A stretch of DNA of 64,000 nucleotides from Gautieria morchelliformis (lineage: Eukaryota; Basidiomycota; Agaricomycetes; Gomphales; Gomphaceae): NCBI GenBank assembly GCA_015179125.1, contig WHVA01000096.1:1-64000 (forward strand), written 5' to 3'. Positions within the stretch are counted from its first letter, which is position 1; each line of letters opens with the position of its first letter. The position numbers were made by a program, and so were the translations under genes. The notes below the pieces were generated by a model. That model ran no database searches. It was not told where the DNA came from and was given only the letters and a program-made list of their open reading frames with translations. Of the stretch, positions 29,427 through 34,324 are shown in pieces.

Positions 29427-31750
29427 TATCCACCGTCCTCTCCCTGCCTGTCACTTATATGTGGTACAGTTGGACTGGTTGAAGAGGGAAATTATGGAAT
29501 CACGTGATAGCCTGTCTAGTAGCGCAGTACTCAGCGCTGCAGTTGCGTGAAGAAAATTAATATTTGTGTGGGAAATCACGTTTACTGATGAAGAGCATGA
29601 AAGGGCGGCTGGTCGCTATAATATCTGCTCGCGGTAGCTGTACACAATGGTCTCCGTTGCCTCTCTTATGGCAGCAGGCTGGTCAGCCAACATATTATGA
29701 TTTTTGGCGAGGAGAAACTGCTTGGAATGTAGCCATGCTTTGGGTGAGAGTGCGCAACATGTGTGATAGATGTAATTACAGCATTGCTACCACATGGAAT
29801 TACCCACTTGTGCTACATACGGAACATGATCAGCCAAGAAACCATTGACATCGCAGGGACAGCTGAATGTAGTGGAGTCTTCAGGGACAACAAAGATATA
29901 GTGCCAATTCGCTGGAGGTGGGAGATTGGAGAACCGCTTAAGAGTGGCCAAAAGACTGTGGTTGACACCGTGCTGTATCCCACTGGTAAACTGAAACATA
30001 TAGAGATGTTTGGCGTGGACGATGAACGAGTCGATGGCGACCTCGTTCGCAGCGAGCGGCACATAATAGACATTCTCCTCGATCTCAATGTTTGGTTCAC
30101 TGTGATTGTATGCCCGAGAGCCTGACGGCACGATGGAAAGACAAATAGGGGGAGGTCCACCATTCAACGCTTCTTCCTGGGCTATGCCCAACACAGGATT
30201 TGCCAAAAAGTCGCCAAATGTAGCATGCCATCGAGAACGAGTGTTATTAGAGCGAAACATTGGCTTTGCCTCAATTTGGATATTAGCGCTGAATCGGTGT
30301 TGGTGCAGGGACTCGAAAACCAGGCCCCTCATCCCACCGGCACGTGGGACATGAGAAAAGCGTTCTATCATGTCGACACGGTCTTGCTCTTTCCATTCCC
30401 AGAGTTGGGTAAGAAGTCGATGTCTTATGAATGACGAAATAGGTCTGATGATGTAGTGGCATCTTTCTGAATCCGAACGGTGGACCACACAGAGTTTGTG
30501 AGAGATATTGTCGATGCCATCAAGGAGGGCATTCAGCATGCCCTTGGTTGCATTGAGAGTGATCACCCCCTCCCGCTGAGCATAGAATCGCTGAATTTCA
30601 GTTGGTGAAAGGTCCAAGCACTGGCGCGCACTTGGGCCCGCATTGTCAAAGCGTTTGAACATGTCATTAAGCTCACGGTGGGGATAGAGTCTCTTTGCTC
30701 TGCAGGATGGTGTCATGTGAGCCTCTGCATCTCCAAATGCACAACCACTCACGCCTTTTCCAGCTCAGCCCTTGTCCATGGATCCATGATGACCAGCGAG
30801 GGCCGTCGTAGCTGACAGAGTTTTTTCCAGCGTTCTTCTTTCAGAGAGGTGACATAGATTGGGAAAAGGCTGTAAAGCGGGTGGTAAACCGTGGTGGGCA
30901 GTGGATCAGAATCGGCTGAATCCACAAAACACCATGTGTATGGGGCACATGAACTATTCTCTGGGTCATAAATCTTCACACCAGTGTGTGAGAATAAATA
31001 AAACACTTTGTTTAGGCACCAGATGACTGGCTGCTTCTGTCCGAGGCAACGCCTCAACGCATAGTGAATCCATAAGGTTTTCCCTGCACACACAAGCCAA
31101 CAATTAGTCACAGAAACGTACAGCAGAGGATGTCGCACCAATCCCTGGTTGCCCAGTTACCACTGCAAGGTGCGTGTGGTGAGATTCATTGTATACTTTC
31201 TTGACCATATTGAAGACTTGAAGATATTCAACTCGAACTAAAATGGTGATCCCCAAAGCATTTGTGAGGAAAGGCTCGCCAGGTAGGATGTCACTACTCG
31301 GGTCATCAAGATCCATGCGCGTTGGGAGGGTTGTGAGGGTGGGTTCGAGAGGGATACCCCAGTGAGCGTCATGGAAGGCCGTTAAACGTTGTAACGCCCT
31401 TGACCTATGTCGGGCACGCTTAAATAGAGGGCCTGTTCCCAAGTGCAACTAAGGTTAACGATCGAATGTGAGCTCATCGTGTTGAGACTTACTGGAGCTT
31501 CCAAAGAAGAACAGGAATAGTGACGTGCCCAAAATTCCAAACACAAGTGCCAGGAGCAGTAAGGACGATTCTCCGAGTCCAAACGCCCAAGCCATAGCGA
31601 ATACGTTTGGTGAACGTCGATATCGGACTCGGATGTTTGGAATAACTGAAAGTAAGAGATAAGAGGGCGAGAGGCAAGGAGAACAGTAAACGTGAGAGCT
31701 ATTTTGGATTATTACAGTAAGTACTACGTAAAGTCGAGAAGCGAACGTAA
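26549..31750. repeat. Left arm (A) of large inverted duplication
   Basis: This ~5.2 kb is repeated in reverse at 32337-37557. The outer end lies in the last intron of TRS65 (gttacttagaYctggctgatg); the inner end lies in the CBR1 upstream region (aagcgaacgtaa at 31739-31750). TRS65 is nearly identical between arms for most of its length, while the CR gene is more diverged. Arm A keeps the complete TRS65 3' end, so it is the ancestral side. Confidence 0.93.
29787..31595 (-). CDS. Crinkler/RHS-like NTPase-nuclease fused to CBR1 anchor exon (copy A)
   Basis: Exons by reading: 31595-31493 (CBR1 exon 1), 31432-31139, 31083-30753, 30699-29787; all GT..AG, phases 1, 1 and 2 matched, total 547 codons with stop. 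Residues 1-34 are the CBR1 anchor ([20 protein letters not shown]). The rest is a P-loop NTPase with Walker A GQPGIGKT assembled across intron 2, a possible Walker B (WCFVDSAD), the PWTRAEL motif, and a C-terminal restriction-fold-like region (AIDSFIVHAKHLYMFQFTSG, then HYIFVVPED). These features match the eukaryotic CR (Crinkler-RHS) effector family, proposed to target DNA or nuclei; an activity here is inference. Without the fusion it could start at the internal ATG at 31316. CBR1 sequence precedes it, so it may use the CBR1 promoter. The paralogue is at 32495-34324. Confidence 0.72.
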
Positions 31751-32336
31751 TTATTGTCTCACCGAACTGCATTTTTGTCTCCGTCAACCACCCTGATGTC
31801 ACAACGCGTCAGGGGGTGAGGGGTCATTGTCTCGGAAGCATTTTGGTCCCGACTCGGCCACATTTTGGTCTCATCCACAAGACACTACCCATAAGGGACA
31901 CGGTACAGTCAAAGGAAAAGTTGGAAATGACGGGAGGGAAAGGATATCCTAAGGGGAAAGGTACGGGCGGTTTTGCCTCCTGCGCCGATGACGCACCGTT
32001 TGTTCAGCCACCCGCGCCACCGACGTCATCATCCCATTTCCAGCTGACGTCGATCGTCGTCGTTGCATCCACACCTCGACGAGCCACTGCAGGCTCATAC
32101 TCGATTTGTAGCAACTGGACGCAGGGGAAAGGAAGGAAGGCCAAATGGGAGGGGCCGCTTACCCGGAAAGGAGAAAGTGCAGGAAAGGGGCGCTTACGAA
32201 AGGGCTGATCACCTGGAAAGGGAAAAGGGGACCGAGGTCAGTGACAGAGAACGGTCGCAGGGGCGGGTAAGAGACGGGTAATGTATTCTTGCTGTATACT
32301 TAATCCGTCTGTACTAGTTGTTTAACGACGCACTAC
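31751..32336. other. Spacer between the inverted arms; no gene supported
   Basis: 586 bp of non-duplicated sequence, except that CBR1 upstream similarity begins at about 32290 on the arm B side. A 130-codon open frame (31816-32208) is low-complexity (GGKGYPKGKGTGG) and purine-rich, and is not called as a gene. The sequence has no visible transposon ends. Confidence 0.6.
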
Positions 32337-32494
32337 TTACGTTCGCTTCTCGACTCTACGTAGTACTTACTGTAATAATCCAAAATAGCTCTCACGTTTA
32401 CTGTTCTCTCCTTGCCTCTCGCCTTTTTATCTCTTACTTTCAGCTATTCCAAACATCCGAGTCCGATATCGACGCGTCACCAAACGTATTCGCT

Positions 32495-34324
32495 ATGGCT
32501 TTTGGAGAATCATCCTTACTGCAGCCAAACCAGCTCCTGGCACTTGTGTTTGGAATTTTGGGCACGTCACTATTCCTGTTCTTCTTTGGAAGCTCCAGTA
32601 AGTCTCAACACGATGAGCTCACATTCGATCGTTAACCTTAATTGCACTTGGGAACAGGCCCTCTATTTAAGCGTGCCCGACATAGATCAACGCCGTTCCA
32701 ACGTTTAACGGCCTTCCATGACGCTCACTGGGGTATCCCTCTCGAACCCACCCTCACAACCCTCCCAACGCACATGGATCTTGATGACCCGAGTAGTGAC
32801 ATCCTACCTGGCGAGCCTTTCCTCACAAATGCTTTGGGGATCACCATTTTAGTTCGAGTTGAATATCTTCAAGTCTTCAATATGGTCAAGAAAGTATACA
32901 ATGAATCCCACCACACGCACCTTGCAGTGGTAACTGGGCAACCAGGGATTGGTGCGACATCCTCTGCTGTATGTTTCTGTGACTAATTGTTGGCTTGTGT
33001 GTGCAGGGAAAACCTTATGGATTCACTATGCGTTGAGGCGTTGCCTCGGACAGAAGCAGCCAGTCATCTGGTGCCTAAACAAAGTGTTTTATTTATTCTC
33101 ACACACTGGTGTGGAGATTTATGACCCAGAGAATAGTTCATGTGCCCCATACACATGGTGTTTTGTGGATTCAGCCGATTCTGATCCACTGCCCACCACG
33201 GTTTACCACCCGCTTTACAGCCTTTTCCCAATCTATGTCACCTCTCTGAAAGAAGAACGCTGGGAAAAACTCTATAAGTGCCGACAGCCCTCCCTGGTCA
33301 TCATGGATCCATGGACAAGGGCTGAGCTGGAAAAGGCGTGAGTGGTTGTGCATTTGGAGATGCAGAGGCACACATGACACCATCCTGCAGAGCAAAGAGA
33401 CTCTATCCCCACCGCGAGCTTAATGACATATTCGAACGCTTTGACAATGCGGGCCCAAGTGCGTGCCAGTGCTTGGAACTTTCACCAGCTGAAATTCAGG
33501 AATTCTACGATGAGCGGGAGAAGGTGATCACTCTCGATACAACTGAAGGCATGCTCGCTGTCCTCCTTGATGGGGAAGGAGGATTGCACATCGGCGATAT
33601 CTCTCACACACTCTGTGTGGTCCGCCGTTCGGATTCAGAAAGCTGCGAATACATTGTCGGACCTATTTCGTCATTCATAAGACATCGACTTCTTACCCAA
33701 CTCTGGGAATGGAAAGAGCAAGACCGTGTCGACATGATAGAACACTTTTCTCATGTCCCGGGTGCCGGTGGGATGAGGGGCCTGATTTTCGAATCCCTGC
33801 ACCAACGCCGATTCGCCGCTAATATCCAAATTGAGGCAAGGCCAATGTTTCGCTCTAACAACACTCGTTCTCGATGGCACGCTACGTTTGGCGACTTTTC
33901 GGCAAATCCTGCGTTGGGCAAAGCCCAGGAAGACGCGTTGAATGGTGGACCTCCCCCTATTTGTCTTTCCATCGTGCCGTCAGGCTCTCGGGCATACAAT
34001 CACAGTGAACCAAACATTGAGATCGAGGAGAATGTCTATTATGTGCCGCTCGCTGCGAACGAGGTCGCCATCGACTCGTTCATCGTCCACGCCAAACATC
34101 TCTATATGTTTCAGTTTACCAGTGGGATACAGCACGGTGTCAACCACAGTCTTTTGGCCACTCTTAAGCGGTTCTCCAATCTCCCACCTCCAGCGAATTG
34201 GCACTATATCTTTGTTGTCCCTGAAGACTCCACTACATTCACTGGCAGCTGTCCCTGCGATGTCAATGGTTTCTTGGCTGATCATGTTCCGTATGTAGTA
34301 CAAGTGGGTAATTCCATGTGGTAG
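32495..34324 (+). CDS. Crinkler/RHS-like NTPase-nuclease fused to CBR1 anchor exon (copy B)
   Basis: Exons by reading: 32495-32597 (CBR1 exon 1), 32658-32951, 33007-33337, 33391-34324; total 554 codons with stop, phases consistent. The first ATG downstream of the CBR1-derived upstream region is 32495, in frame with the anchor ([19 protein letters not shown]). Domain order is as in copy A: anchor, Walker A spanning intron 2, central NTPase part, PWTRAEL, variable linker (about 240-330), nuclease-like C-terminus with FQFTSGIQHG. It differs from copy A mainly between about 33270 and 33670, including a seven-residue length difference. An alternative start without the anchor is ATG 32774. No disabling mutation was seen in the predicted frame. 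No RNA evidence is available here. Confidence 0.72.

Follow-up and report, generated by a model that had tools for sequence, protein, structure and literature searches.

In-frame joining of a putative CBR1 membrane-anchor exon to a Crinkler/RHS-like gene within an inverted duplication of Gautieria morchelliformis

The window analyzed here, which covers the opening 64 kb of a contig of 275 kb from Gautieria morchelliformis (Gomphales; assembly of 122 Mb in 1,113 contigs), contains two chimeric genes in which the 5′ region of CBR1, the gene for NADH-cytochrome b5 reductase, runs into a gene for a Crinkler-RHS type (CR) protein. These are real chimeric genes at the DNA level and a variant of CR header exchange. 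At somewhat better than even odds (about 0.55), we read the sequence as indicating that a captured CBR1 anchor was joined to a CR body, that the chimera was duplicated as an inverted pair, and that its protein is made and held on a membrane. The fungus is counted as ectomycorrhizal in the excerpted text of PMC7550596.

Structure of the junction and the chimeric genes

The two genes lie in the arms of an inverted duplication (97.0% identity over 5,238 columns; Table 1) that adjoins intact CBR1. From the center outwards, each arm holds the CBR1 5′ piece, the CR gene and a TRS65-like gene. In a self-comparison of the window (matches of more than 60 bases), CBR1 positions 25117-25384 align with 32393-32653 (94.8%) and 31694-31437 (90.0%), and a block upstream of CBR1, 24895-24997, aligns with 32297-32395 at 88.6%. 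This agrees with the initial annotation, in which the CBR1 promoter region, exon 1 and intron 1 run into the CR gene in both arms and CBR1 homology stops at the intron 1 acceptor: the homology ends one base short of the CBR1 exon 2 start (25386), where CBR1 reads TTGGGAG^AG and both fusions read TTGGGAACAG^GC. Because ACAG stands in the fusions at the place of CBR1's own GAG acceptor, the new intron 1 (60 nt long in each copy, its donor reading GTAAGT) pairs the CBR1 donor with an acceptor at the CR edge. Exon arithmetic returns the in-frame totals first proposed, 553 codons for the plus copy and 546 for the minus copy. Intron 2 sits within the P-loop, GQPGIG^KT, which is completed only in the spliced form.

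A phase match alone has a chance of about one in three, and both arms inherit one ancestral junction, which we count as a single event. Stronger is the confinement of the CBR1 5′ piece to the window (a genome search gives four matches at three places, every one inside it), together with the retention of its frame in both arms despite arm-specific indels. The 97% arm identity could reflect heterozygosity, with two haplotypes joined head to head by the assembly. However, the flanks differ, CBR1 lying beside the left arm only, the 5′ piece is confined to the window, and indels differ between the two junction regions; an artefact of this kind is very improbable.

Table 1. Positions of the chimeric genes, the donor gene and associated features in the window
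Feature	Position	Strand	Basis or remark
Intact CBR1, 6 exons, 288 aa; donor of captured 5′ region	25220..26357	+	exon arithmetic, translation; Pfam NAD_binding_1 4e-31 on exon 4
119-bp CBR1 promoter segment, missing in both fusions	24995..25116	+	genome search, promoter scan; TATAAA ~155 bases before ATG
Plus copy exon 1, CBR1-derived hydrophobic anchor	32495..32597	+	exon arithmetic, alignment, hydropathy
Plus copy intron 1, CBR1 donor, CR-side acceptor	32598..32657	+	alignment
Plus copy CR exon 2: basic KRARHR stretch, FHxxHWGxPL block, P-loop start	32658..32951	+	exon arithmetic
Plus copy CR exon 3: P-loop end, WCFVD and PWT stretches	33007..33337	+	exon arithmetic
Plus copy CR exon 4: C-terminal part, conserved E, D and QxT	33391..34324	+	exon arithmetic, alignment
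Minus copy exon 1, CBR1-derived anchor	31493..31595	-	exon arithmetic, alignment, hydropathy
Minus copy intron 1	31433..31492	-	exon arithmetic, alignment
Minus copy CR exon 2	31139..31432	-	exon arithmetic
Minus copy CR exon 3	30753..31083	-	exon arithmetic
Minus copy CR exon 4	29787..30699	-	exon arithmetic
Left arm of inverted duplication	26549..31756	-	self-comparison
Right arm of inverted duplication	32331..37557	+	self-comparison
574-bp spacer between arms	31757..32330		parts match dispersed repeats; 43 own-genome matches including itself
TRS65-like gene, left copy (tentative name)	26766..29264	-	IgD3_Trs65 E 0.0047, 17 bits, under curated cut-off 27.4
TRS65-like gene, right copy (tentative name)	34850..37345	+	mismatch-free bins against left copy (see text)
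Helitron open reading frame, Helitron_like_N and PIF1 domains	14503-18654	-	domain search

A putative membrane anchor in place of a predicted ubiquitin-like header

Exon 1 is strongly hydrophobic (19-residue hydropathy of 2.35 and 2.62 in the fusions and 2.35 in CBR1 itself), and the data support its proposed capture from CBR1 as a putative membrane anchor. The basic stretch that follows, KRARHR in the fusions and KRK in CBR1, would favor a CBR1-like orientation. The FAD- and NAD-binding domains of cytochrome b5 reductase are absent from the fusions, which hold only CBR1 exon 1; the FAD_binding_6 matches on the contig all fall in CBR1 itself.

The assignment of the body to the CR family, also made at the outset, holds: it has a P-loop and middling fold matches to STAND/AAA+ NTPases, and Pfam Crinkler headers (PF20147) occur on 10 of 32 protein matches to the same body. 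Of the relatives, P0021 (PF20147) matches exon 4, and P0032 (PF20147) and P0050 (PF07999, which we take to be the RHS domain) match the body of the paralog P0023. A Pfam search with exons 1-4 of the plus copy returned no family, and an Rfam search no match. In exon 4, a part hardly covered by the listed fold matches, E133 and D227 are nearly invariant and QxT is frequent; these residues may mark a nuclease site of the restriction-endonuclease fold.

The N-terminal header of a CR protein is lacking in the fusions, and CBR1 exon 1 stands at its place. In a genome search, the header sequence of the paralogs matches only at loci C526 and C233, and fold comparison predicts both headers to be ubiquitin-like (Ubl). 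By sequence this header matched nothing in Pfam; hhalign of the P0023 header against Pfam Crinkler headers gave a probability of 2%, which is not significant, and a profile search of solved structures returned just two rows, both ribosomal S25 (E-values of 0.057 and 0.17), likewise not significant. Outside the header, the model of P0023 is of low quality (mean pLDDT 46.9). Because native paralogs carry this predicted header, the event is, on the modeled folds, a replacement rather than an addition. The initial annotation, which spoke of promoter and anchor capture, was thus supported on the anchor capture but missed the header of the paralogs. The reverse direction, with a CR gene giving its anchor to CBR1, is ruled out because CR paralogs carry the header at that place.

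Six sizeable loci of the CR subfamily were compared: the two fusions, C526, C233, the C1070:92-kb copy and the C168 pieces. At C526, exon 4 is interrupted by an insert that has inverted ends (~717 bp by match coordinates) and within which the NCBI protein P0023 ends; C233 is split by ~23.5 kb; in the C1070 copy no DNA match to exon 2 is seen, and ~1 kb separates the two parts that do match; and the C168 pieces are oriented oppositely. The fused copies are therefore the only ones of the six with every exon open. The idea that CR moves as a unit whose 3′ end is fixed was also considered and rejected: C233 and the C1070:91-94 kb copy stay alike beyond the break seen in the window (34488-34500), so this break belongs to the window arms.

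We propose that a CBR1 piece (promoter remnant, exon 1 and intron 1) was copied to a site directly ahead of exon 2 in a Crinkler/RHS-like gene whose original first part was already gone; in close paralogs, that part encodes the predicted Ubl header. Because the CBR1 donor is paired with an AG at the edge of the CR exon, splicing of the new intron would bring the hydrophobic anchor into phase with the predicted NTPase-nuclease body. Since both arms share the junction, the chimera would have arisen first and then been duplicated with its TRS65-like neighbor as an inverted pair. The protein would be inserted by the CBR1 anchor with its basic stretch and body cytosolic, as in CBR1, an enzyme of the endoplasmic reticulum and outer mitochondrial membrane. 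Most likely, the anchor would keep the NTPase body at an internal membrane, facing the cytosol, and the protein would no longer be routed by a Ubl header. Nucleic acid as the enzyme's substrate is a guess by analogy with the CR family, whose presumed target it is in the excerpted text of PMC5289972.

Frame retention, selection and promoter

When the three copies of exon 1 are aligned by hand, with gaps set by codon, all four substitutions are synonymous (~0.29 to the fourth power, or ~0.007, by chance at a transition bias of 2 with each change random), and three arm-specific indels measure 6, 6 and 12 bases. Automatic CBR1-to-fusion alignments of exon 1 likewise contain no nonsynonymous change. 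Between-arm indels are multiples of three in 4/4 in the fused coding exons versus 1/5 in non-coding sequence, a count that omits one 3-base indel in the TRS65-like range.

Several observations weigh against a protein that is made and maintained. Of the four synonymous changes, two distinguish CBR1 from both fusions, which leaves just two, both in the minus copy, that are private to a fused copy, and an automatic arm-to-arm alignment of exon 1 with gaps placed otherwise yields three synonymous and four nonsynonymous changes. The ratio of nonsynonymous to synonymous substitution rates (dN/dS) is 0.82 between the arms over the whole frame, with most changes in exon 4; for the CR part it is 0.79-0.82 to C233 and 1.01-1.02 to C526 (based on 485-487 and 336 codons, respectively, excluding some of exons 3 and 4). 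These values indicate little purifying selection on the CR body. No Gautieria protein of 546 or 553 aa is among the 32 matches, a set in which a protein from this window may not be listed at all. Finally, both fusions lack a 119-bp segment holding the sole TATA match of the scanned CBR1 stretch 24960-25222, and a scan of the fused promoters for TATA found none. CBR1-like sequence is kept in the fusions on either side of the missing piece, and because a genome search with the segment finds no match besides itself, either loss from the fusions or gain in CBR1 could account for the difference. The suggestion that the chimeras are under housekeeping control is weakened by this absence.

Together, the exon 1 and indel pattern and the dN/dS values (0.79-1.02) indicate a retained frame without strong constraint on the body, which fits either a conflict protein that evolves fast or a relic of recent origin. 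In the latter case the join would be true but the copies silent or their product without a role, the frames being open through young age and gene conversion. The dN/dS values near 0.8-1.0, the broken state of the other four sizeable loci, the missing TATA segment and a probability of 5-8%, which is not negligible, that no stop codon results from 72 random changes all point towards decay, but the synonymous exon 1 changes and in-frame indels in both arms argue otherwise, albeit in small numbers; we consider a relic possible but somewhat unlikely. Capture of a promoter and 5′ untranslated region alone, with translation from an internal ATG (32774/31316, present in both copies), would yield an untethered, header-less CR protein. 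Two relatives, P0036 and P0038, are indeed annotated without a header, but they start just before the conserved FHxxxWGxPL block whereas the internal ATG lies behind it, and the exon 1 frame is kept; this alternative is distinctly unlikely.

The CR part of the arms falls to 90-93% identity in three 200-bp bins. Between 33200 and 33600, C233 matches one or other arm at 32 of the sites that differ between them, and at 29 of these it matches the minus copy; part of exon 4 looks to have been exchanged with other copies. The mismatch-free run of nine consecutive 200-bp bins (35131-36930) inside a 97% duplication suggests that the TRS65-like part probably underwent recent gene conversion.

Neighboring elements and relation to known systems

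Helitron-type 3′ ends (a GC hairpin followed by CTAG) occur in repeats to the left of CBR1; one sequence that we take to be such an end, at 24827-24848 (+), lies 36 bp before the copied CBR1 stretch, and its hairpin pattern occurs once in the genome at up to one mismatch. Because the left repeats have no match of more than 60 bases beside the fused copies in the window self-comparison, Helitron capture of the CBR1 piece is kept as a lead only. A tandem array of short GGGGACACGYTACCTGTGAGGACAC-like units occupies 23737-24384, left of CBR1. Further right, a Copia-type retrotransposon reading frame (41348-44974, +) lies between 488-bp direct repeats (40869-41356 and 45626-46113) whose 99.4% identity suggests that the element is probably young, and a second retrotransposon frame (59921-62317, -), presumably Gypsy-like, has RVT_1, RNase H and integrase domains.

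Among the best literature matches listed, subscription papers being outside coverage, we found no CBR1-CR fusion and no CR header exchange caught within one genome; "Crinkler" and "cytochrome b5 reductase" appeared together only in a transcriptome of another fungus, with one mention each. The primary CR survey is reportedly that of Zhang et al. 2016. With CR proteins composed of Ubl header, NTPase and restriction endonuclease domains, the fusions share an NTPase body with a P-loop, and relatives of this body carry PF20147 headers while their own paralogs carry a predicted Ubl header; the fusions differ in that a housekeeping enzyme's hydrophobic anchor exon replaces the header. Donor gene, old-header recipient paralogs and junction are readable together in one genome, and, if the chimera is expressed, the role of the Ubl header becomes testable because nature has replaced it. 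A broader scenario, in which a CR protein was re-purposed within the fungus by trading its Ubl header for the CBR1 anchor and, as a membrane-tethered NTPase-nuclease encoded by a gene-converting inverted pair, possibly guards an organelle surface against invading nucleic acid, appears rather doubtful to us.

In Drosophila yakuba, chimeric genes are said to join a duplicated 5′ end to the exons of another gene. The excerpted text of PMC5460883 ascribes such genes to partial duplication and exon shuffling; here, by contrast, the setting is a fungus and an inverted duplication, and a conflict-type enzyme would gain a membrane anchor. The spread of CR proteins is thought to be due to the coupling of a toxin-like body to many different headers, and an Angomonas CR header includes a hydrophobic region (both from excerpts of PMC5289972); the fusions share with the Angomonas protein a CR body and a hydrophobic N-terminus, but in another lineage.
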